Below are positions 11,811 through 64,000 of a stretch of 64,000 nt of DNA, piece by piece (position 1 is the stretch's first letter; the number at the start of each line of letters is the position of its first letter). Source of the DNA: Chloroflexota bacterium (GTDB lineage: Bacteria > Chloroflexota > Dehalococcoidia > Tepidiformales > Tepidiformaceae); contig JAPPBY010000035.1 of assembly GCA_026702615.1 (NCBI GenBank), positions 1 through 64,000 on the forward strand, written 5' to 3'. The notes under the pieces were generated by a model, which worked only from the letters and a program-made list of their open reading frames with translations, was not told where the DNA came from and made no database searches. The translations under genes were made by a program, and so were the position numbers.

Positions 11811-11818
11811 GGCCCGCC

Positions 11819-12115: not shown

Positions 12116-13890
12116 CAGCACGACAGTCGTCCGGTCCGCGCACCGTCACCCTCCCCGAGGCGATCACCGTCAAGGGGCTCAGCGAGCGCCTTGGCATCTC
12201 CCCCATTGAGGCGATCAAGCGCCTCATGACGCATGGCGTCATGGCCGCCATGAACGACACCATCGACTACGAGACCGCCGCGATCGTCTCGTCCGAACTC
12301 GGCATCGCGCCCTCCCCGGAGGCCGCCGCTGCCGCCGTCGCCACCGCGGTCCGTGAGGACGAGGAGGGTGAAGAAGGCGACGAAGCTGGCGCCCCCCGTC
12401 CCCCGGTCGTGACCATCCTCGGCCACGTCGACCACGGCAAGACGAGCCTGCTCGACGCCATCCGCGAGACGAACGTCGTCGCCGGTGAGGCGGGTGGCAT
12501 CACCCAGCACATCGGCGCCTACCAGATCGAGCGCGGCGGCAACCCCATCACCTTCATCGACACACCGGGCCATGCGGCCTTCACCGCCATGCGCGCCCGC
12601 GGCGCCCAGATCACCGACGTCGCCGTCGTGGTCGTGGCCGCCGACGACGGCGTCATGCCCCAGACCATCGAGGCCATCAACCACGTTCGAGCCGCCGACG
12701 TGCCCATGATCATCGCCATCAACAAGACCGATCTCCCCGCCGCCGATGCCGACCGCGTCAAGCAGCAGCTCACCGAGCAGAGCGTCGTCGTTGAGGACTA
12801 CGGTGGCGATGTCCTGGCCGTTCCCGTTTCCGCAACCACGGGCGCCGGCCTCGGTGACCTGCTCGAATCCATCGATCTCGTCTCGGAGATTCAGGAGCTC
12901 AAGGCCAACGCCGACCGCCTCGCGACGGGCACGGTCATCGAAGCCGAGCTCGATTCCCGCCGCGGCCCCCTCGCCACCATCCTCGTCCGTAACGGCACCC
13001 TGCGGCAGGGCGACGCCCTCGTCAGCGGCCTCATCAGCGGCAAGGTGAAGGCGATGTTCGACGAGCGCGGCGAGCGCCTCAAGGAGGCCGGCCCCGCGCG
13101 CCCAGTACGCATCATGGGGCTTGAGGATGTGCCTGCCGCCGGCGATGCCATCGAGGTGGTCGAGAACGAGCGCGCCGCCCGCCGCATCGTCGAGCAAACC
13201 CGCCGCGAGGCCGAGGGCGCGTCCGGCGCCCGCCACGGCCACGTCACCCTCGACACCCTCTTCCACGAGGTCAGCGCCGGCAACGTCAAGGAGCTCCTCC
13301 TCATCCTCAAGACCGACGTGCGCGGCAGTGCCGAGGCCATCCGCAGCTCACTCCAGGTGCTCGGCACCGGCGAGGTGAAGGTCAAGGTCATCCACACCTC
13401 GACCGGCCCGGTAAGCGAGTCCGATGTCATGCTCGCCGGCGCTTCGGGCGCGATCATCCTCGCCTTCAACGTGCGCACCGAGCCGTCCGCCGCCAGCCAG
13501 GCCGAGATCAACGGCGTCGAAATCCGCTCCTACGAGGTCATCTACCAGCTCCTTGAGAGCGTCGAGCAGGCGCTCGAGGGCCTTTACGAGCCGGTCTACG
13601 AGCGCGTCGTCGACGGCACCGCCGAAGTCCGGCAGCTCTTCCGCTCCAGCCGCGTCGGCCAGATCGCTGGCTCCTACGTCACCGAAGGAACGCTTCTCCG
13701 GGGCGACCGGGTCCGGGTCCTCCGTAACGGCGACGAGGTCGCCGACACCAGCTGCGGCGGCCTGCGCCGCTTCCAGGACGATGTGCGGGAGGTGCAGCAG
13801 GGCTTCGAGTGCGGCATCGTCCTCGAACGCTTCGATGCCTTCGAAGAGGGCGATGTCCTGGAGTTCTACCACCAGCAGCGCGTGAACTAG
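12112..13890 (+). CDS. infB: Translation initiation factor IF-2
   Basis: 592 residues when started at the ATG at 12112, which overlaps the rnpM stop. This is a short IF-2, with an IF2_N module ([22 protein letters not shown]), a brief acidic linker, then the GTPase: G1 [10 protein letters not shown]3 DTPGHAAF, G4 NKTD. Domains II-III and the C-terminal fMet-tRNA-binding C2 domain ([18 protein letters not shown]) follow. It delivers initiator tRNA to the 30S subunit and promotes subunit joining. The long repetitive N-terminus of enterobacterial IF-2 is absent, as in many deep-branching groups. Confidence 0.96.
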
Positions 13891-13911: not shown

Positions 13912-14280
13912 ATGAGCCGGCGCACGAGCCGTGTCAGCGAGCTGCTCCGCGAGGAGATCAGCGACCTCGTCCAGCGCGACCTCAAGGATCCGCGCCTCGA
14001 AGGCGCGCTCCTGAGCATCACCGAGGTTGAGGTCAGCGGCGACCTCCGTAATGCGGCCGTCTTTGTCTCCCACCTCGGAAGCGCCGAAGAGCGCGACGAG
14101 GCCCTTGCCGGCCTTCAGAGCGCCGCCTCCTACCTCGAGCGCGAACTGCGCCGCCGTCTTCGCATGCGCCGCACCCCATCCCTCACCTTCCGGTTCGACC
14201 CCTCCATCGAGCGCGGCGCCCGCCTCGCATCCACCATTGCCGACCTCGCCCGCGACCGCGGACCCGACCCCGAGCAATGA
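13912..14280 (+). CDS. rbfA: Ribosome-binding factor A
   Basis: 122 residues with a KH-type fold, which binds the 30S subunit during late 16S rRNA maturation. Signature segments: RVSELLREEISDLVQRDLKDPR, SITEVEVSGDLRNAAVFVS and the RMRRTPSLTFRFDPSIERG tail region. It is 21 bp after infB; its stop overlaps the truB start by 4 bp (ATGA). Confidence 0.93.
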   Translation: MSRRTSRVSELLREEISDLVQRDLKDPRLEGALLSITEVEVSGDLRNAAVFVSHLGSAEERDEALAGLQSAASYLERELRRRLRMRRTPSLTFRFDPSIERGARLASTIADLARDRGPDPEQ

Positions 14281-15191
14281 GCAGACGCCGCAAGGGTGAC
14301 TCCGGTCTCACCGGTGTGCTCCTCATCGACAAGGAGCCCGGCTGGACCAGCCACGACGTCGTCGCCCGCTCGCGACGCCTGACCGGCCAGCGCCGCATCG
14401 GCCACACGGGCGCCCTCGACCCGATGGCGACGGGACTGCTGGTGCTCTGCCTTGGGCGCGCCACCCGTCTCGTCGAGTACATGATGGCGAGCGAGAAGGC
14501 GTATCAGGGCGAGATCGCCCTCGGCCAGGAGACCGACACCGACGATGCCGAGGGCAAGCCCACAGCCAGCGGCGAGGTGCCCGCGGGCGACCTCGACCTC
14601 GACGCCATCGCGCGCCGGTTCACCGGCGAGATCATGCAGACGCCCCCCGCCTACAGCGCCGTCAAGGTCGAGGGCCGCCGCGCGTACGCGCTCGCCCGCG
14701 AAGGCGAGACGCCCGAGCTGCGGCCCCGCCCCGTGCGCGTGACCTCGCTCAGCCTCGAGCGCCCCGCCCCCGACCGGCTGCGTGTCGACGTGCATTGCGG
14801 CCCCGGCATGTATGTCCGCAGCCTCGCCCGCGACATCGGTCGCGCCATCGGCTGCGGCGCGCATCTCGCCAGCCTCCGGCGCACCGGCAGCGGTCCCTTC
14901 GCAGTTCGCGACGCCGTGCCCGTCGAGGCGCTCGGGGCCTTCGCCGGGGCGGGAAAGCTCGACGAGGTCGTGCGGCCTGCCGACGAGGGCGTCGCCGAGA
15001 GCGCTGCCGCCATCCTCACCGCCAGCCACGCGGAGCAGCTCCGCAGCGGCCAGCTCGCCTGGACGCGTGGCGGCTTCCTGCGTCCCGCCACCCTCGCGCG
15101 CCTCTACGGCGCCGATGGCTCCTTCGTCGGTGTTGGCGAGGTAGACGAGCCCGGCCGCGTGCGCGCTCTGAAGGTCGTCGCCGGCGCCTAG
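14277..15191 (+). CDS. truB: tRNA pseudouridine-55 synthase
   Basis: 304 residues. Makes the conserved pseudouridine in the T-loop of tRNA. The catalytic Asp lies in HTGALDPMATGLL; other family segments are GVLLIDKEPGWTSHDVV, KAYQGEIALGQETDTDD, QTPPAYSAVKVEGRRAYALAR (split over the active-site loop) and the VHCGPGMYVRSLARDIG helix, with a C-terminal PUA-like tail. Last gene of the nusA operon; its stop overlaps the convergent hisN stop. Confidence 0.95.
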   Translation: MSRRRKGDSGLTGVLLIDKEPGWTSHDVVARSRRLTGQRRIGHTGALDPMATGLLVLCLGRATRLVEYMMASEKAYQGEIALGQETDTDDAEGKPTASGEVPAGDLDLDAIARRFTGEIMQTPPAYSAVKVEGRRAYALAREGETPELRPRPVRVTSLSLERPAPDRLRVDVHCGPGMYVRSLARDIGRAIGCGAHLASLRRTGSGPFAVRDAVPVEALGAFAGAGKLDEVVRPADEGVAESAAAILTASHAEQLRSGQLAWTRGGFLRPATLARLYGADGSFVGVGEVDEPGRVRALKVVAGA

Positions 15192-15967
15192 CCTGCGTCT
15201 TCTCCTGCGGTCAACACCGCGAGCAGCGCCTCGTGGATGTGCCCGTTCGTCGCGATCGCGTCCTCGCCCGCCCCATCGGCCCCATCCCACGTCGTGAGCC
15301 GCCCCCCCGCCTCCTCCAACAGCACCGCGAAGGGCGCGATGTCCCACGGGTTTACCCTGGGGTCGATCATCGCCTCCGCCCGCCCCGCGATGACCGCCAG
15401 GTAGCCGTAGCAGTCGCCCCACGAGCGCACCAGCCCGGCCTCCCGCGCCAGCTTGGCGAATCCCGCCGGCGTCCGCAGTTGCAGGCTCGCCGATGAGGTT
15501 GTCAGCACCGTGGCCCCGCCCAGCGAAGCGTTGTCGCTCACGCGCGTTGGCTCGCCGTTCAGAAACGCGCCCCCGCCCCGGCTGGCCCAGGCCGTCTCGC
15601 CCACGGCGGGACAGGCCACCACCCCCACGACGGGCTCGCCGTCTCGCTCCAGCGCCACCAGCGTCCCGAAGAGGGGCACGCGATGGATGAAGCTCTTCGT
15701 TCCGTCAATCGGGTCGATAACCCAGCGGTGGCGCCCGTCGCCCGGTGACTCCCCCTGCTCCTCCCCGAGCACCCCGAAATCGGGCGTTTCCCGCGCGAAC
15801 AGCTCGCGCATCGCCTCCTCCGCCCTCCGATCTGCCTCCGTCACCGGCGTCCCGTCCGCCTTCAACTCGACCGTGAGGCGCTGCTCGTAGAGGGGCATCA
15901 CGATGTCCCCCGCGAGTGCAGCCGCCCTCCGCGCGATGCCCGTGAGCTCCTCCAGTTCGCGGTCCAT
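15188..15967 (-). CDS. hisN: Inositol-monophosphatase-family phosphatase, probable histidinol-phosphatase
   Basis: 259 residues. The Mg-binding motifs of the IMPase superfamily are GEEQGE, WVIDPIDGTKSF and the C-terminal PWDIAPFAVLLEEAGG. The WGDCYGYLAVIAGRAEAMID segment preceding PWD is typical of HisN-type histidinol-phosphate phosphatases rather than SuhB. Several his genes lie at 36-39 kb, and no other HisB-type phosphatase is in the window, which supports a role in histidine synthesis; a general phosphatase remains possible. A TAGACT -10 box 6 nt before the ATG suggests a leaderless transcript. Confidence 0.8.
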   Translation of the reverse strand: MDRELEELTGIARRAAALAGDIVMPLYEQRLTVELKADGTPVTEADRRAEEAMRELFARETPDFGVLGEEQGESPGDGRHRWVIDPIDGTKSFIHRVPLFGTLVALERDGEPVVGVVACPAVGETAWASRGGGAFLNGEPTRVSDNASLGGATVLTTSSASLQLRTPAGFAKLAREAGLVRSWGDCYGYLAVIAGRAEAMIDPRVNPWDIAPFAVLLEEAGGRLTTWDGADGAGEDAIATNGHIHEALLAVLTAGEDAG

Positions 15968-15973
15968 CGGGCG

Positions 15974-15979
15974 AGTCTA
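15974..15979 (-). promoter_or_regulatory. Candidate -10 box of a leaderless hisN promoter
   Basis: TAGACT on the minus strand, 6 nt before the ATG at 15967, no Shine-Dalgarno sequence. Confidence 0.45.
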
Positions 15980-16040
15980 GCGCGTGCCTTCCCCTCCGGC
16001 CCGCTCCGGTCCGGTAAGCGCGCCGTTACCGCTCGTCGCC

Positions 16041-16046
16041 TACACT
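16041..16046 (+). promoter_or_regulatory. Candidate -10 box of the pdhABC operon
   Basis: TACACT; transcription would begin near 16053. That excludes the in-frame ATG at 16049 and favours the GTG at 16079, which has a GAAGG box 7 nt upstream. Confidence 0.4.
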
Positions 16047-16078
16047 GAATGGCTAGTGGTTTTGATGAAGGTGCAAAC

Positions 16079-17092
16079 GTGAGCGTTGGACAGGCCATTC
16101 CCACCATGGTGGGAGAGCCCCCTGACGATGAACTGCAGCAGCGCTTTCTCTACGAGATGCTGCTCATCCGGCGCTTCGAAGAGAAGTGCGCCGAGATGTA
16201 CACGCGCGGCAAGATCCGTGGCTTCCTCCACCTCTACACCGGCGAGGAGGCCTGCGCCGTCGGCGCCATCAGCGCCCTCCGCGACGACGACAAGATCGTC
16301 ACGCACTACCGCGACCACGGCCACGCCCTCGCTCGCGGCGTCGAACCCAACCGCATCATGGCCGAGCTCTTCGCCCGCGTCGGCGGCACGAACGAGGGCC
16401 GCGGCGGCTCCATGCACATCTTCGACGTCAGCAAGAACTTCCTCGGTGGCTACGCCATCGTCGCCGGGCACATGCCCATCGCTGTCGGGCTGGGGCTCGC
16501 TGCCAACCTGAGCCACGAGGACTGGGCCGCACTCTGCATCTTCGGCGACGGAGGTGTGGGGGAAGGCGAGTTCCACGAGGCTCTCAACCTCGCCGCCATC
16601 TGGAAGCTCCCCGTCGTCTGGTTCTGCGAGAACAACGGCTACGGCATGGGCGTCCCCTTCGACGACTCGCTCGCGAACGACGTCTACAAGATCGCCGCGG
16701 CCTACCAGATGCCCAGCGTCCGCATCGACGGCATGGACGTGCTCGAGGTCTACTCCGCCACTCAGCTCGCCCTCGCCCACGTTCGCGAGGGCAACGGCCC
16801 CTATTTCATCGAAGCGCTTACGTACCGCTACCGTGGCCACTCCATGGCCGATCCCGAGCTCTACCGCACGAAGGCGGAGGTCGAGGAGTACCGCAAGCGC
16901 GACGCGATCGAGCGCCTCAAGCGCTCGATGATCGCCGACGGTCTCATCGACGAGCCCACCTACCAGGCGCTCGTCGCCCAGGTGGGTGCCGAGGTCGACG
17001 AGGCCGTCGCCTTCGCCGACGCCAGCCCTGAGCCCGGCCTCCACACCCTCTACGACCACATCACCAAGGAGTACGAGGGGGAATCCGGATGA
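16079..17092 (+). CDS. pdhA: Pyruvate dehydrogenase-type E1 component, alpha subunit
   Basis: About 337 residues from GTG 16079 (an ATG at 16049 is in frame but lies upstream of the likely transcription start). E1-alpha of a thiamine-diphosphate 2-oxoacid dehydrogenase: TPP/Mg motif GDGGVGEGEFHEALNLAA...NN, the regulatory-loop region YRYRGHSMADPELYRTKAE, and RGGSMHIFD, which is typical of pyruvate and acetoin dehydrogenases. With E1-beta it decarboxylates the 2-oxoacid and transfers the acyl group to E2 lipoate. It overlaps pdhB by 4 bp. The substrate is inferred as pyruvate; acetoin is possible. Confidence 0.87.
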   Translation: MSVGQAIPTMVGEPPDDELQQRFLYEMLLIRRFEEKCAEMYTRGKIRGFLHLYTGEEACAVGAISALRDDDKIVTHYRDHGHALARGVEPNRIMAELFARVGGTNEGRGGSMHIFDVSKNFLGGYAIVAGHMPIAVGLGLAANLSHEDWAALCIFGDGGVGEGEFHEALNLAAIWKLPVVWFCENNGYGMGVPFDDSLANDVYKIAAAYQMPSVRIDGMDVLEVYSATQLALAHVREGNGPYFIEALTYRYRGHSMADPELYRTKAEVEEYRKRDAIERLKRSMIADGLIDEPTYQALVAQVGAEVDEAVAFADASPEPGLHTLYDHITKEYEGESG

Positions 17093-51881: not shown

Positions 51882-51947
51882 TGGCTGGCCAAAGGCGACT
51901 GTACTGCGAACCTTCGAACTGGCGGTTGGCCTGTAGGGAATCACCCC
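51882..51947 (+). repeat. Left 66-bp direct repeat (candidate attL)
   Basis: Identical to 61271-61336 except at 3 positions (51906, 51911, 51940). Read in frame, it encodes the same last 16 residues plus stop as the recombinase at the right end (GWPKATVLRTFELAVGL). It contains inverted ends GGCCAA ... TTGGCC about 45 bp apart, as expected for an attachment site of a serine recombinase. Confidence 0.8.
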
Positions 51948-52369
51948 CAGCCACTGTGCAACAGGGCCTGAAAGGGATTTCACCCTTGAAACCATGCTTG
52001 CGGAGCAGCTCCCCTGGCGCGGCACTGCAGGCTAGGGTGGCGAGTCGGGTGTGATGGTCTGCCGAAAAGACACCCCTGCACAGGGGAGCTGACACCGGTT
52101 TGACAACGGCGCTCGTGCGAAGTGGGGTGTGCTCGGCTCTTCGTGACACTCCCCTTCTGAGGTCGCTAGCTGCATCGGTCCCGCTATTCGCTCAGTTGCC
52201 TGCAGGGCTTCCTCGATCCAGGTCCGTTGCGATACTCCCCAACCCAACGATTCCGACTCGCGACGGGCGATGTCTCGTTGGGCGACCCGCCCCATCTGTG
52301 GAACGGCCGCGTACTAGGGCGATCGTCAAGGGGAACAGGGTGACACCCTGTACGGAACAAGAGGTTCGA
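51948..52369. other. Non-coding stretch between the left repeat and the transporter operon
   Basis: 422 bp without a convincing gene on either strand. Short open frames here have no family resemblance and atypical composition. It lies downstream of dppC, where the ATPase genes of such an operon would normally follow. A short AAGGG/CCCTT hairpin at 51972-51987 lacks a T-run. Confidence 0.5.
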
Positions 52370-53350
52370 CTAGAGGCCCGAGCCACGTTGCCTTGGATCG
52401 AGGACATCCCTCAGCCCGTCGCCGAGCAGATTGAATCCGAGCACCGCTAGCGTGATCGCCCCACCGGCGGCAAGGCTCATCATCGGCTTGCTGTCGAGGA
52501 ATGCCCGCCCGTCGGCGACCATCCCTCCCCAGCTCGGTCCGGGAACGCTCAGATTCAGGAAGGAGAGGCCGGCCTCAGCGAGGATGTTCGTCCCGATCGA
52601 GGCCGAGAAGATGACGATCATTGGGCCGACAACGTTGGGGGCTATGTGGCGCCCCATGATTCGGCCCTGCCCCGCCCCGATAGAGCGGGCGGCTTCGACG
52701 AACACTTCGGCACGCAGCACAAGTGTTGCGGAGCGGACGAGCCTCGTGACGGGCCCGACCCCGAGCACAGCCAGTGCCACGATCGTGAGTTGGGTACTGG
52801 GCTCTCCCGTCTGCACCAGCAGAAGAAGAAGGACAAGCGCCGGGATTGCGAGGAGCGCATCTATTATGCGCTGGATCGCAAGGTCGACGGTCCCTCCCAG
52901 ATAGCCGGATATGATGCCGATCACGGCTCCGATCATCGCAGCCACCGCCGATGCACTGACTCCTACCGTCACGGACAGTCGAGCGCCGTGAACCATCCGC
53001 GTAAGGAGATCCCTGCCAAACTCGTCGGTTCCCAGCGGATGCTCCCAACTCGGACCCGAGAGGAGCGCGAGTCGAGTCGGATTCGACGCCTGGAGGTTCG
53101 TCGGGTCTTCGTTGTCGGGGTCGTAGTGTGGATTTTCCTCGCTAAACACGTCGTCGTCCCCGTAGGGGGCGACGTACGGCCCGAACACCCCCACCACCAC
53201 GACGGCGGCGGCGAAGACGGCCCCGATGGTTGCCAGCTTCTTCCGCCTCGCGAACCACGCGAGACTGGTGAAGACCAGCATGACGGGCGATCGCCGCTCA
53301 GCGCCAAACTCATGCGCCAGTGGCTGGGGAGTCGGTTCAACTCGTCCCAT
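52370..53350 (-). CDS. ABC transporter permease, DppC/OppC type
   Basis: 326 residues. N-terminal OppC_N helix (IGAVFAAAVVVVGVFGPYVAP), then the inner-membrane permease domain with about five helices and the EAA loop EAARSIGAGQGRIMGRHIAPN. The family element HPLGTDEFGRDLLTRMVHGAR is present. It pairs with the DppB-type permease 2 bp upstream and the binding protein at 54439. No DppD/DppF ATPase gene follows; the gene stops 422 bp from the left repeat. Confidence 0.9.
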   Translation of the reverse strand: MGRVEPTPQPLAHEFGAERRSPVMLVFTSLAWFARRKKLATIGAVFAAAVVVVGVFGPYVAPYGDDDVFSEENPHYDPDNEDPTNLQASNPTRLALLSGPSWEHPLGTDEFGRDLLTRMVHGARLSVTVGVSASAVAAMIGAVIGIISGYLGGTVDLAIQRIIDALLAIPALVLLLLLVQTGEPSTQLTIVALAVLGVGPVTRLVRSATLVLRAEVFVEAARSIGAGQGRIMGRHIAPNVVGPMIVIFSASIGTNILAEAGLSFLNLSVPGPSWGGMVADGRAFLDSKPMMSLAAGGAITLAVLGFNLLGDGLRDVLDPRQRGSGL

Positions 53351-53352
53351 GT

Positions 53353-54339
53353 CTACTCTGCACCCCCGACACTGATCCTCGGATCGACCTGGAGATACAC
53401 GAGATCTACAAGGAGATTCACAACAACGACGCCCGTCGCCAACACGAGCGCCAGTCCTTGAACCACCGGGACGTCGCGGCTACGCAGCGAGACGATCATC
53501 ATCTGTCCCATCCCGGGGATGTTGAACATCGCCTCGAGGATCACGGAGCCACTGACCAGTGTCGCAAAGACGAAGCCAAGCACCGTCAACACAGGTATCA
53601 GGGCGTTTCGGAGGGCGTGGCGGAGGATGACAGTACGCGCCCTGAGCCCCTTGGCCTGCGCCGTCCGGACGTAGTCCTGGCGGAGGACATCCAGAAGTTG
53701 GGAGCGCAGCATTCGCATCACAAGCGCTCCGGACGACACTCCCCCGGCAACAGCCGGAATGATGAACAGCTGGAAGCTCGGCCAGGGATCTTCCCAGATG
53801 CCAGGGTTCCCCACGATGTTGAGTTCCAGAATGCCGTACTCAAGCACAACCAGTGTGCCGATCGTTGCGGTCCAGAAGGACGGCGCCGCGAGCGCGCCGA
53901 TCGCGAAGAGGCGAAGTACACCATCAAGGAGCGAGTCCTGCCGGATGGCCGAGATGATCCCGACCGGAAGGGCTACCAGCACTCCCACGATCATGCTCAT
54001 CGTTCCCAGTTGGATGGTGTAGGGGAGCGCGTGCCTGATCTCAGCAAGGACGGAGCGACCGGTGGCGAAGGATGTCCCCAGGTCATCTGTTACGAGGCTC
54101 CGGACATATTTCGCGTACTGGACGGGGATGCTGTCGTTCAGCCCCAGTCGCTCGCGCGCCTTCTCCAGTGCCTCTTCAGGAGATTCACCTGCAGCGGCGC
54201 CACCGCCGAAGTAGCGTTCGGACACTTGGGCGGCCGCGTAGTCTCCCGGGAGGATTCGGACCGTCACGAAGACGAACGTCATGACGAGCCAGATGACGGC
54301 GACGTTGAGGAGCACTCGCCGGATGACGTAGTTCGTCAA
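53353..54339 (-). CDS. ABC transporter permease, DppB/OppB type
   Basis: 328 residues with six membrane helices. N-terminal VIRRVLLNVAVIWLVMTFVF, the extracytoplasmic RERLGLNDSIPVQYAKYV segment, and EAA loop YVRTAQAKGLRARTVILRHAL followed by the GSVILEAMFNIPGMG element typical of DppB. Forms the translocation pore with the DppC-type protein. Lies 99 bp after the binding-protein gene and 2 bp before dppC. Confidence 0.9.
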   Translation of the reverse strand: MTNYVIRRVLLNVAVIWLVMTFVFVTVRILPGDYAAAQVSERYFGGGAAAGESPEEALEKARERLGLNDSIPVQYAKYVRSLVTDDLGTSFATGRSVLAEIRHALPYTIQLGTMSMIVGVLVALPVGIISAIRQDSLLDGVLRLFAIGALAAPSFWTATIGTLVVLEYGILELNIVGNPGIWEDPWPSFQLFIIPAVAGGVSSGALVMRMLRSQLLDVLRQDYVRTAQAKGLRARTVILRHALRNALIPVLTVLGFVFATLVSGSVILEAMFNIPGMGQMMIVSLRSRDVPVVQGLALVLATGVVVVNLLVDLVYLQVDPRISVGGAE

Positions 54340-54438
54340 GCGTTACCACCCGGAGAGCCATGCTGGCTCGTAGAAACCCCGCCCCCTCAGGCTCTCACCC
54401 GAACGGTGCGCGAAGGCGTGGGCGATGATGGAGCGTGA

Positions 54439-56283
54439 TCAGAGCGACTCGATTCCAGGCTTCCCCTGGAAAGTGGGATCACTCTGGTCGATCCAGGTTC
54501 CCTCCGCAAGATCCTTCGTCCAGTACCCTGTGAAGTTCGGGATCTCACGGTGCAGGTATGGCCACTTCATGTAGCGGTTGAGGCCACCCGCGATCGAGAA
54601 TTCACCGGCCCCCGCATCGCGGAGCGCGACCCGCTGGGCATCCCTCATGATCTCCTCGGCCTCCTCGCGCACAAGGGACCTGAACCCACGGGCGATCAAG
54701 TCTTCCATCTCCGAGTTGTTGTACTTCCCGAAGTTGATGCCACCATCCTTCTGGAAGTAGAGGGCGAACCTTGGGCGGGGATCCGGCTGATTCCAGGCCG
54801 CCAACGTCCCGAAGTGAATGGTGTAGTCATCACTGATGAGGTAGTTGAAGAGGCTCGCGCCCCCCTCTACGAACTGGGGCTTGAACTGATCGGTCCCAAG
54901 ATTCTTGTTCATCATCGTGATCATCCACTCGGCCGCCGCCTGGCCTGAGGGCACATTCTGGATGACGATGCCAATGTCCCCGAGGTCCGGGCCCCCGCCG
55001 GCCTCCCAGAGCGCCCGCGCGTCGGTGAGATCCTGGGTCTTGTCAGGCCGGAAGCCGGGGGTGGTCAGCAACTCGTCCTCGGGCAGTGCCCAACCCGTGT
55101 AGGCGAAGGGAATCGGCGGGTTTGGCCTACCCTCACCGGCGAACGCCTGCTGGATCACGAGCGGCCGGTCGATCGCAAGCTGGAACGCTTCGCGGATCTG
55201 CGGGATGGCGAATGGCCCCGCGTTGAAGTTGTAGAGGAAGGAGTGGTTGCCGTTCGGATCAGCCGTGTTGACCAGTTCGGCATCTGGATTGGCGCTGGCA
55301 ATCGTCTCCATCACCTGTTTGGGGAATGAGCGGAACAACCCCCCGAACATGTCGATCTGCTTCTGTTCGAATGCCGCTCTGAACGCATTGATGTCGTCCC
55401 CGATGTCAGTTCCGATCATCTGATCGACGAACTGAATTGGGTCACCCAGAGCCTTGCGAAAATGGTCCGGGTGGCGATCCAGCCGGAATTTCCGGTCCTG
55501 TTCGAAAGAGGTGACCATGTACGGCCCCGTCCCGACCATGTTTTCGCCTGAGAAGAAACCGGGGTTGTCTTCAATCGCCTTGGCGACATCCGGGTGCATG
55601 AACCCGTTCAACTGGTCGGCCATGGCGCTGAGCCAGGGACCATTGGGACCACTCAGTGTCAGATTCACCGTTCGATCGTCCGTGTACTCCGTATCCACGA
55701 TGTGTGAGTAGACGGAAGCGAACCGATGGAACGTCTCATCGACGGTGCCATCGCTGAGCATCCGTGAGCGATTCCGCTCGATGTTCCACTCGACCTGGTC
55801 CATGGTGAGTTCCGAGCCGTTGGCCGGGGCCTTGTTGTGCCACGTGATCCCGTCACGCAGCTTGAAGACGTAGGTGACCTCGTCTGGCTGCTCCGGAAGA
55901 CTCTCGGCCGCGTCGGGAATGATCGTGCCGGCGTTGACGCTGCCGAACACGACGAGGTTGCTGTAGATCTGATGGTCTGAGGTGACGCCGTTCACTTCGC
56001 GGTGAAGGTCGGGGTTGTTTGCCCATCGAGTGACCGCTTCGCTGTAGTAGCTGCCGTCCTTTGTGGCAGGCGCGGCCGTGACCGCCGGTGTAGGGGCCTC
56101 CGTGGCAGCTTCGGTGGCCGCCTCCGTGGCGACTGCATCGGCACTGCCAGTGTCGTCGTCGTCATCGTCGCCGCAGCCCGCGATCGCGAGCGCGCCGACA
56201 CCAACCGCCCCAGCGGCCGCTCCGCCCAGAACAGCGCGTCTCGATACGCGCTTTCGCCAATATCGGTTCCAATAGCCTTCCAT
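54439..56283 (-). CDS. ABC transporter solute-binding protein, family 5, Tat-exported lipoprotein
   Basis: 614 residues from the ATG at 56283, which is preceded by GGGAGG and by a TATACT box (56316-56321); the longer open frame upstream is not used. Twin-arginine signal RVSRRAVLGG, hydrophobic stretch, lipobox with Cys (LAIAGC) and an acidic DDDDDD run, then a low-complexity Ala/Thr/Glu linker. The domain is SBP_bac_5 (peptide/nickel type): YVFKLRDGITWHNKAPANG, MVGTGPYMVTSFEQDR, REAFQLAIDRPLVIQQAF. Such proteins bind peptides or other amphiphilic solutes; next to P450 genes, a hydrophobic substrate is possible (inference). Confidence 0.9.
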   Translation of the reverse strand: MEGYWNRYWRKRVSRRAVLGGAAAGAVGVGALAIAGCGDDDDDDTGSADAVATEAATEAATEAPTPAVTAAPATKDGSYYSEAVTRWANNPDLHREVNGVTSDHQIYSNLVVFGSVNAGTIIPDAAESLPEQPDEVTYVFKLRDGITWHNKAPANGSELTMDQVEWNIERNRSRMLSDGTVDETFHRFASVYSHIVDTEYTDDRTVNLTLSGPNGPWLSAMADQLNGFMHPDVAKAIEDNPGFFSGENMVGTGPYMVTSFEQDRKFRLDRHPDHFRKALGDPIQFVDQMIGTDIGDDINAFRAAFEQKQIDMFGGLFRSFPKQVMETIASANPDAELVNTADPNGNHSFLYNFNAGPFAIPQIREAFQLAIDRPLVIQQAFAGEGRPNPPIPFAYTGWALPEDELLTTPGFRPDKTQDLTDARALWEAGGGPDLGDIGIVIQNVPSGQAAAEWMITMMNKNLGTDQFKPQFVEGGASLFNYLISDDYTIHFGTLAAWNQPDPRPRFALYFQKDGGINFGKYNNSEMEDLIARGFRSLVREEAEEIMRDAQRVALRDAGAGEFSIAGGLNRYMKWPYLHREIPNFTGYWTKDLAEGTWIDQSDPTFQGKPGIESL

Positions 56284-56315
56284 GTCCGGGCCTCCCTTGA
56301 CCGCTTCCTGCACGG

Positions 56316-56321
56316 AGTATA
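56316..56321 (-). promoter_or_regulatory. Candidate -10 box of the transporter operon
   Basis: TATACT on the minus strand, 32 nt before the ATG at 56283, leaving room for the GGGAGG ribosome binding site. Lies in the 205-bp divergent spacer to the P450 gene at 56489. Confidence 0.45.
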
Positions 56322-56488
56322 TCCCTGCCTGCAATAGGTAAGTATGCTCTGGGGAAATCGCACGGCTTCGGGTGGCAGCCTGAGAGCAGCACTCGGTCTC
56401 GCGATAGACGTTGCCGGTTCCCTTGACAGGCGCTGCCAGGGGCCGTAAGGCAGAGCAGGCGAGCAGGAGCGATTGAAGCGAGGATGTC

Positions 56489-57814
56489 ATGACCGCTCCC
56501 TTTGAGGTCGAAGAGACCGGCGACCCATCGATCATCGAGCCGCATGAATTTCTGGGCGAGCAGTTCCGGGTCGATCCGTTCCCGCTCTACAAGCGTCTTC
56601 GCGACTACGAGCCCGTTTACCAGGATCGGTTCCAGAATCGCTGGATCATTTCCCGCTACGAGGACATCTGGGGCATCTACAAGAACAACGCCCAGTTCAC
56701 ACGCGCGATTTACGACCCGAACGGACACTTCAAGTTCGGCTCGGACACGCCCCTGGGCCAGTCGCTGAACGAACTTGGAGAAGGCCAGGACTACATCTGG
56801 CTGCGCGGGATCGTAGCGGGCGAGTTCGTGGGCAAGCCGCTTCTCGCTCGTATTCCGCTACTAGAGCGCGTCGCGAACCGGATTATCGAGGAATTCCTCG
56901 CCCAGGCGGCCGAGGATCGCAGGGCGGGGCGAACGCTCCATGGCGAGATCGAGCTGGTGAAACAGTTCAGTGCCCGCTTCCCCATCCGTGTCATCGCCGG
57001 ACTGCTCGGGCTCCCCGAGGAAGACAACGACTATTTCGAGTGGGTGTACGGACAGCTATTCGCTGCCCAGGGGTACGGTCGCGCCCACTTCCGCCGCGGC
57101 ATCAAGGCGCGTGACGAACTCTTCGCGTACCTGGATCCCCTTCTCGACGAGCGAATGACCAATCCCAGGGACGACCTCCTGTCACGGTTCTGCCATGCGA
57201 CCAAGGATGGGCGGACGATGAGCCGCGATCAGATGAAGGGGTACGTTGCCCTCATGCTCGCAGGGGGAGGCGACACCACGCACAAGGCCATCGATGCGAT
57301 GTGGTGGAACCTGCTGAACAACCAGGAGCAATTTGAAGCCGTAAAAGACGCCCCGGACCTGATGGACCGCGTATTCACCGAGATGTTGCGCTTCGACGGC
57401 TCCAACCACTGGCAACGCCGGCGGACGAAGATGGAGGTTGACCTCCGCGACAAGGTTCTCCCCATGGGAGCGACCGTGTGGCTGTTCCTCGGCGCTGGCA
57501 ATCATGATGAGCGCGTCTTCAAGGATCCCGAGACGTTCAACATCTTCCGCGACGACCTCTATTTCGGGAAGGAGCTGCGCTCGGGCTACTGGAAGGACGG
57601 CGTTGCCAGCCATCTGGGCTTTGGGCAGGAGACACACTTCTGCCTCGGCTACGCGCTCGCTCGTCAGGAGGCGGTGATCTCGTCCAAGATGTTGATGGCG
57701 GCCCTCAAGAATCCCCGCCTCAAGAATGTGCCCAACGAGGGAATCGTGTTTCCTCCTCCCGGTCGCGGTGGCGTACGCGGCGTCCAACACCTTGACATCG
57801 AATTCGATCTCTAG
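56489..57814 (+). CDS. Cytochrome P450 with altered haem loop (first of a tandem pair)
   Basis: 441 residues. I-helix LAGGGDTTHKA, ExxR in TEMLR, haem loop F-G-Q-E-T-H-F-C-L-G with ligand C385. The usual FxxGxxxCxG glycine at the fourth position is Glu (E381). The protein otherwise looks complete, with C-terminal NEGIVFPPPGRGGVRG and HLDIEFDL shared with the next gene. Codon use is less GC-biased than in the second copy. It diverges from the transporter operon and is followed 48 bp later by the paralog. Substrate and redox partner are unknown. Confidence 0.9.
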   Translation: MTAPFEVEETGDPSIIEPHEFLGEQFRVDPFPLYKRLRDYEPVYQDRFQNRWIISRYEDIWGIYKNNAQFTRAIYDPNGHFKFGSDTPLGQSLNELGEGQDYIWLRGIVAGEFVGKPLLARIPLLERVANRIIEEFLAQAAEDRRAGRTLHGEIELVKQFSARFPIRVIAGLLGLPEEDNDYFEWVYGQLFAAQGYGRAHFRRGIKARDELFAYLDPLLDERMTNPRDDLLSRFCHATKDGRTMSRDQMKGYVALMLAGGGDTTHKAIDAMWWNLLNNQEQFEAVKDAPDLMDRVFTEMLRFDGSNHWQRRRTKMEVDLRDKVLPMGATVWLFLGAGNHDERVFKDPETFNIFRDDLYFGKELRSGYWKDGVASHLGFGQETHFCLGYALARQEAVISSKMLMAALKNPRLKNVPNEGIVFPPPGRGGVRGVQHLDIEFDL

Positions 57815-57816
57815 GC

Positions 57817-57841
57817 GCGGCCCCTCAAGGCCTTCGGCCGC
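57817..57841 (+). other. Stem-loop between the tandem P450 genes
   Basis: GCGGCC ... GGCCGC inverted repeat around a 13-nt loop containing the palindrome AAGGCCTT, directly after the first P450 stop. There is no T-run, so it is not a standard terminator; it could stabilise or process the bicistronic mRNA. Confidence 0.3.
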
Positions 57842-57862
57842 TTACCCGAGGAGGTATACAAC

Positions 57863-59182
57863 GTGGCAGCTCCCATAAGAGAAGCACCCATCATCGAACC
57901 CGCCGAGTTCCTCACCGAGGACCACCGCCTCGACCCATTCCCCCTCTACCGCAAGATCCGGGACTGGGAACCCATCTACAAGGACGACCTCCAGAACCGG
58001 TTCTTCGTCAGCCGCTACGAGGACATCTGGGACGCCTACAAGCGGAGCCGCGACGGGGGCGACTTCACCCGCGCCGTCTACGACCCCGGGGGCAAGTTCG
58101 AGTTCGGCTCCGAGTCACCGCTGGGCCCGACCATCCTCGAGATGGGCGAGGGCGAGGACCATCGCTGGAACCGGGGCGTGGTCGCCGGCGAGTTCGTGGG
58201 CCGGCGCCTCTCGAAGTGGCTCCCGGTAATCGACGAGATCGCATCCGAGCTCATCGACGAGTTCTCCCTCGAGGCGGCGGAGAGCCTCGCCGACGACTTC
58301 TCGGGCCGCGGCGAAGTCGAATTGGTCTCGCAGTTCAGCCGCCGCTACCCCATCCGCGTCATCGCCGGACTGCTCGGCCTCCCCAGGGAGGACTACGACT
58401 ACTTCGAGGGCGTCTACTCCGTTCTCTTCTCCGGGATGAGCTACGGGCGCGCCTACTTCCGGGAGGCTTCCGGCGCACGGGACGAGCTGCACGACTACCT
58501 CGACCCGATCATCGCCCGGCGCCGGCGAGACCCCGGCAAGGATCTCATCTCGAAGTTCTGCCTCGCCGAGATGTCGGGGCGCAAGATGACGACCCACCAG
58601 ATCAAGGCGTTTATCACCCTTTTGCTCGTCGGTGGCGGCGACACCACCCATAAGGCCATCGACTCGATGTGGTGGAACCTGCTGAACAACTACGAGCAGT
58701 ACGAGGCTGTGCGCGAGCAGCCGGAGCTGATGGACCGCGTCTTCACGGAGATGCTTCGCTTCGACGGCCCCAACCACTACCAACCCCGTCGCACCACCCG
58801 CGAGACCGAGCTGGGTGGCCGCGTCATACCCATGGGGGCGACGATCGCGCTCTGTCTCGGGTCCGGCAACCGCGACGAACGGGTCTTCAAGGACCCCGAC
58901 ACCTTCAACATCTTCCGCGAGGATCTCTACTTCGGGAAGGAGCTCCGCACCGGCTACTGGAAGGACGGCGTTGCCAGCCACCTCGGCTTCGGCCAGGAGC
59001 GCCACCACTGCATGGGATACGCCATGGCCCGTCAGGAGGCGGTCATGGCTTCGAAGATGCTGCTCGATGTGTTGAAGAACCCGAGGCTCAAAGACGTGCC
59101 CAACGAGGGCATCGTCTTCCCACCGCCGGGCAAGGGAGGTGTGCGCGGCCCCCTCCACCTCGAGATCACCTTCGACGTGTGA
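57863..59182 (+). CDS. Cytochrome P450 with altered haem loop (second of a tandem pair)
   Basis: 439 residues from a GTG behind a strong GAGGAGGT site at 57848-57855. Clear paralog of the preceding gene along its whole length (VAGEFVG, RYPIRVIAGLLGLP, DSMWWNLLNN, DGVASHLGFGQE). I-helix LVGGGDTTHKA, ExxR in TEMLR, haem loop F-G-Q-E-R-H-H-C-M-G with C383 and again Glu (E379) for the conserved Gly. Third positions are strongly GC-biased, unlike the first copy, so the pair may be old or assembled from different sources. Confidence 0.9.
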   Translation: MAAPIREAPIIEPAEFLTEDHRLDPFPLYRKIRDWEPIYKDDLQNRFFVSRYEDIWDAYKRSRDGGDFTRAVYDPGGKFEFGSESPLGPTILEMGEGEDHRWNRGVVAGEFVGRRLSKWLPVIDEIASELIDEFSLEAAESLADDFSGRGEVELVSQFSRRYPIRVIAGLLGLPREDYDYFEGVYSVLFSGMSYGRAYFREASGARDELHDYLDPIIARRRRDPGKDLISKFCLAEMSGRKMTTHQIKAFITLLLVGGGDTTHKAIDSMWWNLLNNYEQYEAVREQPELMDRVFTEMLRFDGPNHYQPRRTTRETELGGRVIPMGATIALCLGSGNRDERVFKDPDTFNIFREDLYFGKELRTGYWKDGVASHLGFGQERHHCMGYAMARQEAVMASKMLLDVLKNPRLKDVPNEGIVFPPPGKGGVRGPLHLEITFDV

Positions 59183-59460
59183 CCTCGGGAGTCCCTCGTG
59201 GAGGTGAGTCGTGCGGAGGTTCTGAACGACTTGGAGTACTCGGAGTGCGGGCACATCACGCTAGTGAACTACCACCAGACCAGGGGCGGCGAGGCTAACC
59301 CGCCACTCACGCGTTCCTACCAGACCACTACTTCGGGCGCGACCGTAGACCATCCCCGGCGCACGGCAGTGTGTGCAGGGGGACACCCCGCCCTTCAGCC
59401 GCGCCATGCGCATGGCCGGCGGGTGCTTGACCACGGGCTCGACGGCGTCGGCTGGAACGT
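59183..59460. other. Spacer without a convincing gene
   Basis: 278 bp between the second P450 and the hydrolase gene. A GTG-started open frame of 88 codons (59198-59464) has no recognisable similarity and odd composition. Pieces of several frames look weakly protein-like, so decayed coding sequence is possible. Confidence 0.4.
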
Positions 59461-60150
59461 CTAGCCCTCGAGAATGAGGTGCGCTAACTCGTCGGGTGTG
59501 CTCAGCATCGGGTAGTGCCCCGTGTCGAGTTCGTGCCAGCGCGCGCCGAGTGCCTCAGCGCAGCGGCGCTGGTGTGCTTCGCCGGGAGCCGTCGACTGGC
59601 GGCAGTAGATCACGGACGCGTCCCACGGCTGATCCCAGAACGATGCGAGGACGACCGGTTCGTTGAACGCCGCGACGGGGTACAGCCCAAAGCGATCCGC
59701 GGCCCACGCTGCCAGCTCCGGCTCCATGCCCGCGCCCAGGGTGTTGAGCGCCCCGTCGCGCGAGAGGCCGACGGCCACGTCGGTGGTGATCGCCGGGGGC
59801 CGGTTCACGATGTCCGGGATCTTCTCGCCGTGGAGAAGGGCGAGCGCGTCGACGAACACCAGGCGCTGAATGCGCGCGCGGGCGAGCTCGGCGACCCTCG
59901 CCACAACCATGCCACCGGCTGAGGTGCCGACAAGCACGACCTCAGAGAGGTCCTCGTAGCGCAGCAGCTCCGCGATCTCTTCGGCGTGCGTCTCCGTAGT
60001 GATGCCGGGCCGCGCCTGCGCGGTGCGCTCGGCGCAACCGTCGAGCGAGGGCGCATACACACGATGGCCGGCGGCACGGAGCCGGGTCGCTACGGACGAC
60101 CAGATCCAGCCGCCCTGGTACACACCGTGGATCAGCACGAATGTCGCCAT
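59461..60150 (-). CDS. Alpha/beta hydrolase
   Basis: 229 residues of the esterase EstC / methylesterase-like branch. Oxyanion region FVLIHGVYQGGWIWSSV, nucleophile elbow VLVGTSAGGMV with the catalytic Ser, and catalytic His in LDTGHYPMLSTPDELA. The family includes esterases and hydroxynitrile lyases; the substrate cannot be told. It is in the island next to the P450s, and could act on a P450 product, but that is inference. Convergent with P450 and divergent from the recombinase remnant. Confidence 0.85.
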   Translation of the reverse strand: MATFVLIHGVYQGGWIWSSVATRLRAAGHRVYAPSLDGCAERTAQARPGITTETHAEEIAELLRYEDLSEVVLVGTSAGGMVVARVAELARARIQRLVFVDALALLHGEKIPDIVNRPPAITTDVAVGLSRDGALNTLGAGMEPELAAWAADRFGLYPVAAFNEPVVLASFWDQPWDASVIYCRQSTAPGEAHQRRCAEALGARWHELDTGHYPMLSTPDELAHLILEG

Positions 60151-60182
60151 GCTGTCGTCCCATGTACGGACCCCTCCGGTAG

Positions 60183-61325
60183 GTGGGGAGCCGCAGCAAG
60201 CGTAGTCTCCGCTCTGGGGTCGCTTCTGGGAAGCCGATGGGCCCCAGCCGACACAGCGCGATCTACGCGGCGGGCGCAGGGGGCGCTGGCAGCGGCAGTA
60301 GGCCGACGTGGCCGATTGGGCCCACCGCTGGCCAGCATGCCGTCGCCTTCAAGTCGATGCTCCGCCGGCGCGGTGTCCGCGTCGTCTCGATCACCGAGCA
60401 CGCCGACGACTCGCCCACGGGCAAGCTCATGGAAGCGATCATCGAGAGCGTCGACGAGTTCTACAGCGAGAACTTGGCGCAGGAGGTCATGTCGGGCGAG
60501 GAGTTCCGGCGAGTGCAGCGGGTGCTGCAAGCCAAGGCGCCGTCCAAGATACATCCCCGTCGCGCGACCAGCCCCTACCTGCTCAGCGGCCTGGCCAAGT
60601 GCCAGACGTGCCGGCGTGCGCTCACGGCGGCTGAGGCCAAGAGCGGCCGCTACACGTACTACGTGTGTCAGTCCCTCATCAAGCGGGGCCGGGGGAGCTG
60701 CGACACGCCGCGGCTGAACGCCAAGAACTTCGAGCGGCTCATCATCGAGCAGCTTCGCGAGCACATCCTCACAGAGAGCAACATCCGCGCACTGGTGCGG
60801 CTCGTCGACGAGGAGATGGACGGCGTGGCCCGCGAGCAGCGGATAAGGCTTGAGACGATTGAGGGAGAGCTGGCGGAGCTGCGCCGGCGCATGGACCGGC
60901 TGTGGTACGCCGTCGAGACCTCCGACCTGGAGATCAACGACATCCTTCCCCGTCTCAAGGAGCACCAGGAGCGGCAGGAGCGCCTCGAGACGGCTGCCGA
61001 CGAAGCGCGCAGGACGTTGTCAGAGCGGCGCGCGGTTCTCGACAGCGTGGACGCCATCGCCGCCTTTGCCGAGGAGATGAGCGACTTCCTGAGAACGAGC
61101 GAGCTGACCGAGTCCCGGACCTTCATCCGCTCCTTCGTGAAGGAGGTCGCCGTGAAGCCCGGAACGGCAACGATCCGCTACACGATCCCGCCCCCGCCTG
61201 ACAGTCCCATCGGCGGGGCGGATACGGCGGACATCAGCCTCTCGGACCCGATTATGCGTACTGAGCGAAGTGGCTGGCCAAAGGCGACTGTACTACGAAC
61301 GTTCGAACTGGCGGTTGGCCTGTAG
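60183..61325 (+). pseudogene. Serine recombinase remnant (catalytic N-terminus and an internal segment missing)
   Basis: The frame is open over 380 codons but only parts are recombinase. From about codon 55 it matches the end of the resolvase domain (FKSMLRRRGVRVVSITEHAD, GKLMEAIIESVDEFYSENLAQEV), then jumps directly to the segment before the zinc ribbon (EEFRRVQRVLQAKAPSKIHP, CQTCRRALTAAEA), omitting the ~120-residue recombinase domain. The zinc ribbon (CQTC ... CQSLIKRG ... C), a long coiled coil and the C-terminal FIRSFVKEVAVKPG part are intact. The N-terminal ~90 residues with the nucleophilic Ser are replaced by unrelated sequence. The protein cannot be an active recombinase. Its last codons lie in the right repeat. 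Confidence 0.8.
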
Positions 61326-61336
61326 GGAGTCACCCC
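61271..61336 (+). repeat. Right 66-bp direct repeat (candidate attR)
   Basis: Overlaps the last 17 codons and the stop of the recombinase remnant and 11 bp beyond. 63 of 66 bases match 51882-51947. It carries the perfect palindrome CGAACGTTCG at its centre (61297-61306) and the inverted ends GGCCAA / TTGGCC at 61276-61281 and 61315-61320. Confidence 0.8.
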
Positions 61337-61429: not shown

Positions 61430-61465
61430 GACTCGGCCTTGTCAGCGTCCGAAGGAGGTGCGCCA

Positions 61466-64000
61466 GTGGCCACCGACGACACGAGTGGTGAGAGCGCCTC
61501 GCCCCAAGCTGAGGTTCATCAGCCTTCTCCATACGTACATGCATTGCGTAAGGCGGGAGCCGTTGAAGGCGCGGTAAACGTCCAGATCGGCCCTCGCTTC
61601 TTGGAGCTATTCTCAGAGAACCTCTACTCGTCGCCCAACAAGGCCTTCGAGGAGCTCGTGTCCAACTCTTGGGATGCGGGAGCCTCCGTGGTGCATGTCA
61701 GCATCCCGGCATCTCTCACGGAACCCGGATCGGCGATATGGGTACTAGACAACGGCGAGTCGATGGACCTCGCCGGCTTGGAGCAGCTGTGGGCAGTGGC
61801 AAGTGCAGCCAAGAGGGACCGGATGGATCCACCTCGGCCACAGATCGGCAAGTTCGGGATCGGCAAACTCGCGACGTATATCCTCGCGAATGAGATCACC
61901 TACATCTGTCGCGCGGCCGACGGCATTACCCGTGCGGTGACAATGGACTACCTCGACATCGACGAGCGTGCGGAGTCCGACGATCCGTCCAAGCGACTTC
62001 AGATCGGCTCGCTCCCGCTCGAGGTGAGGCGCTACAGCGACGAGGAGGCTCGGGGGCTGCTAGCAGCCTTGCCTGACGGGGAGCACGTCCTCCGACTCGT
62101 CGACGATGGTATTCCCCTGCCTGAGGGCGCCACCGAAGTCGATGACGGCTTCGGTGGCGAGCCTGAGGACGCACCTTCGACGCCTGTTGGGACCTGGACC
62201 CTGGCGATCCTCACCAACCTGAAGGACAAGGGCACACGCATCCAGGCCCACCAAGTCCGCAGGATGCTGCGTGCAGCACTACCGCTCGGCGCCTCGATCT
62301 CGATCGGAGTCAACGGGGAGGCCGTTGAATCAACCAAGCTAGACATCCCCATTCATGAGCAGTGGGTTCTCGGTCCGGGGCTTACTATCGATGATCTCGA
62401 TGTCGACGCCGGCGATGAAGATGAATCGGTTCCCGTCGTCGAATGCGACGACCCGTATCGTCACGTTACGGTCGAGGGGATTCCAGGAGTCATCACCGGG
62501 ACAGTGCGACTCTATGCGCAGCGGATCTCTGGAGGCAAGAGTGAAGATCGCGCTCGGTCGGTAGGCTTCTTCGTGAACGTGCGGGGGCGGGTGATTGCGC
62601 TCGATGATCCGTACTTCGGGCTAGAGAACCTGAGCCACGGGGCGTGGGCACACTTCCGGTGCACGGTACGCGCGGACGGACTCGATGCTGTGCTCAACGT
62701 CGAGAGGGATACGTTGCGTGACGGTCCGGAGCTCCGTCGTTTTCGCGCCCTGCTTCGCGCCCTCTTCAACAAGGCGAGAAGTGCCTACCCGTCCCTGGTC
62801 TCGGCAGCCTGGCCAAACGCCGGGGAGTTGCTCGCTCGGCGATGGGACGCCTTCCCGCTACACGACCTGAGCGAAATGATAACCGAGCGACTGGGAACTC
62901 AGGTTGCCCTTCCCGACTTCGTTGATGTCTCCGACATTGGCGATGCGCACGCCTATCGTGAGCAGTGGCTGCTGGCGTCCAAGAGGCCTTCGGAACTCCT
63001 CACCGAGGTGCGTGACGAAGAAGCCGGCCCAGACGACTCAATGGCGATGTACCAGCTGAATAGCCGCAAACTCATCGTCAATGCCAACCACCCGTTCGTG
63101 CGGGAACACAGTGCGACCGCCGAGGAAAAGGAACTCGTCCGCGACCTCGCCTTGGTCGACTTCCTCGTCGCTACTCGGATGGTTCAGCAGGGAATCGAAG
63201 TTGGTGCTGTGGAAGAGGCCCATCAGTACCGCGACCAAGTGATGCGTATGTTGGCGCGTCTCCGACGCCGCACGGGCGCTCAGATCGCCCAGTTGCTCCT
63301 TGAGGCTACCGGGCATGCCCGTGGACTCGAGGTGATCGTCGGGGAGGCCTTGGACTACCTTGGGTTCGTGGTGACACCTATGGGTGGCCGAGGCGAACCC
63401 GAGGGTATCGCTCAGGCGGCTATCACCCCCCGAGCGGACGACTCACCCGGTACGTACTCGTTGACCTACGAAGCCAAGTCGACAACCCAGTCCTCCGGGA
63501 GGGTGTCTGCTGATGACGTAAATCCTGGAAGACTGAAGCGGCATCGCGAGAAGCACGCCGCGAATCACACCCTCGTAGTTGGCCCTGACTTTGCTGAGGG
63601 CGTCCTCACCGAAGAGTGCACGAAGTACCTTGTCACGCCGATGAGGGCTGCTGACTTGGCGACCTTGCTCATCCGCTCGGGCCGCAGGGGGATAATCCCG
63701 TTGACGAAGTTGCGGGAGATGTTTGAGCTTCACGACCCTGACGCGGTACACATGTGGGTGGAGCAGCTCTCGATCGACCGGCAGAGTCCCGACACCCTCA
63801 CGCTGGAGGAACTGTTGGAGGCGATCGAACGGCTTGGGTTCGAGGGCCCGGATACTATTCAGACCAGCACGTTGGCGTATGAGATCCGACGAACGCGCGA
63901 GTCAACCGATCGCCCTACCCGGGCCGAAGTGCAATCGGTCGCTCAAGGATTCAGCGTGCTCCTGCCGGGCCTGCTGGAAGTGCAAAAGGACGACATATAC
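61466..64000 (+). CDS. GHKL (MORC/MutL-like) ATPase fused to a PD-(D/E)xK nuclease-like domain, 3' end outside window
   Basis: The frame is open for 845 codons from the GTG at 61466 (GAAGGAGGTG upstream) to the window edge. GHKL ATP site: N-box FEELVSNSWDAGA (E63, N67, D70), VLDNGESMD (D95) and G-box GKFGIGKLATY (128-137), then TWTLAILTNLKDKG. An S5-like domain follows near 365-440 (VGFFVNVRGRVIALDDP, LNVERDTL). A restriction-endonuclease-like domain starts near 620: GEALDYLGFVVTP, E-P-E-G (644-647) and YEAKS (E669, K671). Bacterial MORC-like ATPases with nuclease domains are known from restriction-modification contexts. Third positions are much less GC-biased than in the core genes, which points to transfer. 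An anti-phage role is inference. Confidence 0.8.
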   Translation, partial: MATDDTSGESASPQAEVHQPSPYVHALRKAGAVEGAVNVQIGPRFLELFSENLYSSPNKAFEELVSNSWDAGASVVHVSIPASLTEPGSAIWVLDNGESMDLAGLEQLWAVASAAKRDRMDPPRPQIGKFGIGKLATYILANEITYICRAADGITRAVTMDYLDIDERAESDDPSKRLQIGSLPLEVRRYSDEEARGLLAALPDGEHVLRLVDDGIPLPEGATEVDDGFGGEPEDAPSTPVGTWTLAILTNLKDKGTRIQAHQVRRMLRAALPLGASISIGVNGEAVESTKLDIPIHEQWVLGPGLTIDDLDVDAGDEDESVPVVECDDPYRHVTVEGIPGVITGTVRLYAQRISGGKSEDRARSVGFFVNVRGRVIALDDPYFGLENLSHGAWAHFRCTVRADGLDAVLNVERDTLRDGPELRRFRALLRALFNKARSAYPSLVSAAWPNAGELLARRWDAFPLHDLSEMITERLGTQVALPDFVDVSDIGDAHAYREQWLLASKRPSELLTEVRDEEAGPDDSMAMYQLNSRKLIVNANHPFVREHSATAEEKELVRDLALVDFLVATRMVQQGIEVGAVEEAHQYRDQVMRMLARLRRRTGAQIAQLLLEATGHARGLEVIVGEALDYLGFVVTPMGGRGEPEGIAQAAITPRADDSPGTYSLTYEAKSTTQSSGRVSADDVNPGRLKRHREKHAANHTLVVGPDFAEGVLTEECTKYLVTPMRAADLATLLIRSGRRGIIPLTKLREMFELHDPDAVHMWVEQLSIDRQSPDTLTLEELLEAIERLGFEGPDTIQTSTLAYEIRRTRESTDRPTRAEVQSVAQGFSVLLPGLLEVQKDDIY

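Follow-up and report, generated by a model that had tools for sequence, protein, structure and literature searches.

The window analysed here, a stretch of 64,000 nucleotides, carries at its right end a gene whose product joins a GHKL ATPase to a predicted FokI/HindIII-type PD-(D/E)xK nuclease. As judged from its sequence and from structure models, this protein probably serves as the restriction enzyme in a type II-like restriction-modification (R-M) system of two genes (probability about 0.72), in which a methyltransferase encoded just past the window would mark self DNA. GHKL restriction enzymes are themselves already known; among them this type of nuclease is unreported as far as the literature searched shows, in which no GHKL protein was described as carrying a FokI/HindIII-type nuclease. 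The gene and the parts of its product are arranged as follows.

61452 to 61459, plus strand: Shine-Dalgarno sequence AAGGAGGT, read directly, 6 bases 5' of the GTG start
61466 to 64000, plus strand, open to a stop at contig base 64090: GHKL ATPase-FokI/HindIII-type nuclease gene
61574 to 62035, plus strand: GHKL (Hsp90/MORC/MutL-type) ATPase domain, residues 37-190 (Pfam HATPase_c_3, motifs and fold match)
62063 to 62815, plus strand: S5-like transducer region, residues about 200-450 (structural and profile match through residue 450, invariant columns)
63272 to 63700, plus strand: predicted FokI/HindIII-type PD-(D/E)xK nuclease domain, residues 603-745 (E622, E646, E669 and K671; models, VIA-align and HindIII profile)
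63791 to 64000, plus strand, continuing past the window: C-terminal helical tail, residues 776-874 (from the modelled secondary structure)

The frame runs from the GTG at 61466 to a stop ending at contig base 64090, with its last 30 codons (90 bases) beyond the window. The initial annotation had described a single protein of at least 845 residues behind a ribosome binding site: the frame is indeed open throughout its course in the window, it reaches 874 residues once the contig is followed past 64000, and the Shine-Dalgarno sequence lies ahead of the start codon. The different codon use attributed to the gene stands in part, as its GC3 of 0.72 is lower than the 0.86-0.90 of several neighbours, but other genes of the stretch have values of 0.75-0.79.

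The N-terminal part of the protein belongs to the GHKL superfamily. HATPase_c_3 matches it at E 4.5e-15, above the Pfam cut-off, and likewise matches 12 of 12 relatives. The motifs ExxxNxxDA, DxGxGM-like and GxFGIG stand at residues 63-71, 95-101 and 128-133, and every residue of the ATP site that had been read from the sequence (E63/N67/D70, D95-N-G97 and G128-K-F-G-I-G133) is where it was claimed to be. All 12 relatives in alignment A4 keep these motifs, save for E63/N67 in the row of a Corynebacterium pseudogene, which starts past an in-frame stop and hence lacks them, and K358 and R414 of the transducer are conserved across the alignment of relatives. The modelled fold of residues 40-450 matches MORC3 (Z 17.8), Hsp90 (Z about 17) and topoisomerase VI-B (Z 14.9), which together with MutL are ATP-dimerising machines. 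A PDB profile search found the ATPase part only, among the matches listed, and a PDB sequence search with the full-length protein gave nothing useful. Membership of the MORC family in the strict sense is not supported, as the strict MORC S5 motif GhXhhpXXRhl is missing at the S5 position in all 13 sequences, and the sole match to the strict pattern among them is a chance one near the C-terminus of another protein. The window protein has a relaxed MORC-like form, GFFVNVRGRVI, at residues 367-377, and an MzaB profile weakly matches the ATPase domains of three relatives.

Sequence and models together indicate that the C-terminal domain is a FokI/HindIII-type nuclease, an assignment based on structural and sequence matches in combination. 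Firstly, when residues 548-775 were modelled alone (pLDDT 79.4), VIA-align superposed residues 603-765 on FokI 403-579 with a Z of 15.0 (rmsd 2.5 A over 147 aa), with HindIII (Z 14.4), Nt.BspD6I (14.0) and the BspD6I small subunit (13.5) close behind and the next-best fold at Z 10.1; Foldseek alone ranks HindIII top, at E 5.8e-5. The full-length model is weak (pLDDT 64.5, pTM 0.42), and within it residues 603-765 match FokI at Z 14.8; the alignments behind the structure models were shallow, at 6 rows. Secondly, a search with the nuclease domain profile found HindIII (E 0.0015), the DAK motif of which aligned in register. Thirdly, hhalign placed FokI against the same profile at E 8e-4 with GG-PDG and DTK in register (FokI GG..KPDG...VDTK, family GG..[KEN]P[DE]G...[DE]AKS); this FokI sequence was entered by hand, and it outscores 2000 of its own shuffles against the profile, though weakly (9.3 bits).

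The late motifs noted before, E644-P-E646-G and Y668-E-A-K671-S, are both present. E622, [DE]646 and [DE]669-A-K671 are retained in 13 of 13 aligned sequences, in which A670 and K671 are invariant. Position 646 is E in the window's clade and also in L004, L027 and L035, and D elsewhere; E646 in place of D as the first acidic residue is less usual, and counts against the R-M reading. Pfam, structural and profile matches agree on a GHKL and transducer ATPase with a PD-(D/E)xK C-terminus, as first proposed. The fold expectations were likewise borne out for residues 40-450, which match MORC3 and Hsp90, and for the restriction-endonuclease-like C-terminus, but not for the Mrr-type nuclease that had been named: Mrr_cat matched one of 12 members at a non-significant E of 0.084 (Pfam), and the FokI/HindIII fold was found instead. 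The C-terminal helical tail, which matches no Pfam family in the window protein or 12 relatives, is possibly a DNA-binding element.

Some of the weaker fold matches are to modification-dependent enzymes (AspBHI Z 8.8, MspJI Z 8.0), as might be expected were the protein a type IV-like nuclease acting against foreign methylated DNA, with the methyltransferase serving some other role. These scores fall far under those of FokI and HindIII, and a matching methyltransferase alongside would make such a nuclease self-destructive unless their specificities differed, which renders this reading improbable.

The restriction reading draws further on what lies past base 64000, where the contig (92,548 bases) encodes a 393-aa DNA methyltransferase at 64150-65331 on the minus strand, convergent with the GHKL gene and 59 bases downstream of it. 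A putative restriction gene is hence linked to a DNA methyltransferase at the window locus, as in type II-like R-M systems. Motif I (LDPMCGSGT) stands near the N-terminus of the methyltransferase, and some 190 residues on comes TSPPY, which is usual in N4-cytosine methyltransferases; the PDB matches of this protein include both N4-cytosine and adenine enzymes. The initial annotation had the GHKL gene acting alone or leading an operon; with a convergent methyltransferase as its partner, it neither stands alone nor leads an operon at this locus.

The METHYLTRANSFERASE link recurs: a methyltransferase of one family adjoins the GHKL gene on the window contig and at nine relative loci (L004, L014, L015, L016, the second copy in L017, L018, L019, L027 and L035); the two genes mostly overlap or lie a few bases apart. 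The methyltransferase gene may be convergent, downstream or upstream, with the pair still together, and when seven whole genomes were tested with the methyltransferase profile, the linked copy gave the top match genome-wide in every one. That the pair persists despite rearrangement is the principal reason for proposing an R-M system, and together with the nuclease domain it favours the restriction-type role originally suggested for the gene. Counting against the pairing, the first copy in L017 is without a methyltransferase directly alongside, and L021 has Vsr-like and C5-methyltransferase-like genes, recognised by sequence motifs, in place of the family methyltransferase; L020 has a different TSPPY-type methyltransferase 2 bases downstream, which counts against pairing with a single family.

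Comparison with characterised enzymes sets the protein apart in its nuclease. The BbrUII/HgiDII type II enzymes (NCBIfam NF050001) resemble it in having a homologous GHKL and transducer part, aligned to residues 37-450 by profile-profile comparison (hhalign, probability 99.8, E 1.7e-28), and a C-terminal PD-(D/E)xK-like nuclease; NF050001 itself scores 59.5 bits against the window protein over the ATPase part only, short of its full-length cut-off of 550. The nuclease of the HgiDII family is Shedu (SduA_C)-like, at E 6.6e-11, and gives no alignment to FokI, whereas the reverse holds for the window family, and hhalign found no alignment between the nuclease parts of the two families. Hence one GHKL module has been joined to two nuclease lineages. 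FokI, HindIII and BspD6I share the nuclease fold and catalytic arrangement (Z 13.5-15.0), but are without the ATPase module that the window protein has, FokI having a separate DNA-reading domain and HindIII being a small stand-alone enzyme. Prokaryotic MORC/MzaB operons also tie GHKL ATPases to R-M genes (PMC2292703), but differ in that the window locus has no SF2 helicase partner except a separate type I hsdR, and in the strict MORC S5 motif, which is absent here.

The paraMORC3 proteins and VcSduA (Shedu type I-D) have a similar succession of GHKL domain, S5-like middle and C-terminal RE-fold with E-D-(E/D)xK-type residues (PMC2292703, PMC12137116). VcSduA directly restricts phages, for which both ATPase and nuclease residues are needed, and this 2025 work on a protein combining GHKL with DUF4263 has overtaken the earlier remark that few such proteins had been tested (PMC12137116). 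As VcSduA defends by itself (PMC12137116), and shares the overall plan of GHKL, middle domain and PD-(D/E)xK, the window protein might also be a GHKL-type Shedu/paraMORC3-like nuclease acting alone, with the methyltransferase as incidental defence-island cargo, in the way that type I R-M genes likewise lie nearby. This is unlikely, as VcSduA combines a DUF4263 (SduA_C) nuclease with solitary action, whereas the window family combines a FokI/HindIII-type nuclease with a linked methyltransferase. A Shedu-type nuclease found no support in the sequences, with no Pfam match to SduA_C in 12 relatives and hhalign probabilities below 2% against SduA_C proteins, while FokI and HindIII match well; furthermore, the methyltransferase linkage is kept across unrelated loci, often with overlapping genes.

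In the R-M system that we favour, FokI-type domains, which cut both strands as dimers only, would be joined to a module whose known relatives dimerise with ATP, and it is this combination that suggests ATP gating of nuclease pairing. We infer ATP-dependent dimerisation, site recognition, cleavage and protection by the methyltransferase. Binding of ATP by the GHKL domain would cause two subunits to dimerise through it, as in Hsp90, MORC, MutL and topoisomerase VI-B, and the transducer would close round DNA, with the nuclease domain, the C-terminal tail or both testing for an unmethylated site. The dimer would pair two FokI/HindIII-type domains, generating two active sites and a double-strand break, after which ATP hydrolysis would reset the clamp. 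ATP would in this scheme be a gate on nuclease dimerisation, and not fuel for DNA translocation. Looping roles have been proposed for MORC/paraMORC proteins in R-M systems by Iyer et al. (PMC2292703). Eukaryotic MORC chromatin proteins are believed to derive from nuclease-tied GHKL clamps. The chances seem evenly balanced that the family represents an undescribed R-M class in which an Hsp90/MORC-type clamp acts as an ATP switch pairing FokI/HindIII-type domains, as a natural ATP-gated FokI fusion with members in bacteria, in phages and on a haloarchaeal plasmid and with an origin separate from the Shedu-type GHKL enzymes. The apparent coupling of the GHKL module to the best-studied dimer-dependent nuclease type means that an ATP-driven dimerisation switch could be tested directly with a single protein and its methyltransferase, and a nuclease under ATP control might be developed from the family as a laboratory tool.

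The gene lies within an integrated mobile unit, to the left of which the window contains the following features.

51882 to 51947, plus strand: att-like direct repeat (66 bp) bounding the entire 30-kb island on the left (empty-site breakpoint 51887)
60183 to 61325, plus strand: serine recombinase remnant (Zn_ribbon_recom and partial Resolvase matches)
61271 to 61336, plus strand: att-like direct repeat (66 bp) bounding the GHKL unit on the left, 95% identical to 51882-51947

Two sister genomes (L072 and L073) have an empty site, in which base 51887 is joined directly to 81977-81979 with 94-95% identity to the window contig on both sides. The intervening 30.1 kb is therefore an insertion, beside a tRNA-Gln gene, and the proposal of a transferred gene at an integration site is upheld. 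A recombinase does neighbour the GHKL gene, as had been stated, but it is a decayed remnant. Relative to the intact copy (contig 80375-82126), which lies beside tRNA-Gln, tRNA-Leu and tRNA-Gly, it is 83-91% identical with two deletions, which have removed the catalytic part at the N-terminus and some 365 bp of the middle. The repeat divides the island into a 9.4-kb left unit (51887-61276), with P450 and oligopeptide-transport genes and the decayed recombinase at its end, and a 20.7-kb right unit, with the GHKL gene at its left end, type I R-M genes and the intact recombinase at its end. The island thus looks as if it arose by two integrations, one after the other, at a single site. Beyond the window, where partner genes had been anticipated, the methyltransferase is followed by hsdM, hsdS and hsdR of the type I system, and then by a Replic_Relax protein.

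The type I operon (L002:9173-12674) also encodes a protein of 225 aa that matches no family and probably has a membrane helix at its N-terminus, and, between hsdS and hsdR, a PIN_4-domain protein of 485 aa. A third copy of the 66-bp repeat, at 84%, occurs at G000:C8:29964-30019 and perhaps marks another island; some 5 kb away, at C8:24071-25213, lies a gene for a second member of the methyltransferase family. The P450 pair of the left unit is 93% identical to a copy elsewhere in sister genome G428 (C54).

Full-length relatives are rare, being found in five other genomes of 400 in the phylum (six with the window's own, about 1.5%) and in none of 37 other genomes of the order, with one further relative from a class-level search. 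Corynebacterium marambiense has a decayed copy (L004:8571-12634) with both genes damaged, the GHKL gene by an in-frame stop and frameshifts and the methyltransferase by being spread over several frames; it was used downstream of the stop only, unrepaired, and intact relatives occur at other loci. Four viral contigs carry relatives, plus a fifth identified via a second profile (IMG/VR), while the phage GenBank collection yielded no match. L019 and L035, whose phage derivation is supported by a nearby terminase and amidase/endolysin, carry the GHKL-methyltransferase pair, and L020 carries a close equivalent; L022 is incomplete, ending at the contig end. A haloarchaeal plasmid encodes a more distant relative, the C-terminus of which is matched by the nuclease profile (E 1e-21). 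L042 was rejected as a family member, being a distant GHKL protein with a C-terminus unlike the nuclease domain.

This patchy and rare occurrence, together with the usual pairing with a methyltransferase, the variable loci and the carriage by viral contigs and a plasmid, makes it highly improbable that the protein is a MutL-like ATPase-nuclease for repair or chromosome handling, borne on a mobile unit but not for defence. That alternative would fit the phage-borne L019 and L021, which lie near Vsr-type-endonuclease-like and C5-methyltransferase-like genes (sequence motifs), and the repair roles suggested by Iyer et al. for some standalone paraMORC3 proteins (PMC2292703).

Individual loci of the putative restriction family have further features. 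L017 has two GHKL-nuclease genes (6946-9450 and 14219-16720) about 5 kb apart, the first with an efflux transporter gene alongside. In L014, a 641-aa protein with weak P-loop ATPase matches (11201-13126, minus strand) overlaps the GHKL gene and is possibly a helicase-like third subunit. On the phage contig L019 (8820-11903), the GHKL-methyltransferase pair and the C5-methyltransferase-like and Vsr-like genes form a compact R-M cluster, which also encodes a protein of 513 aa with a weak match (E 0.004) to the nuclease profile.
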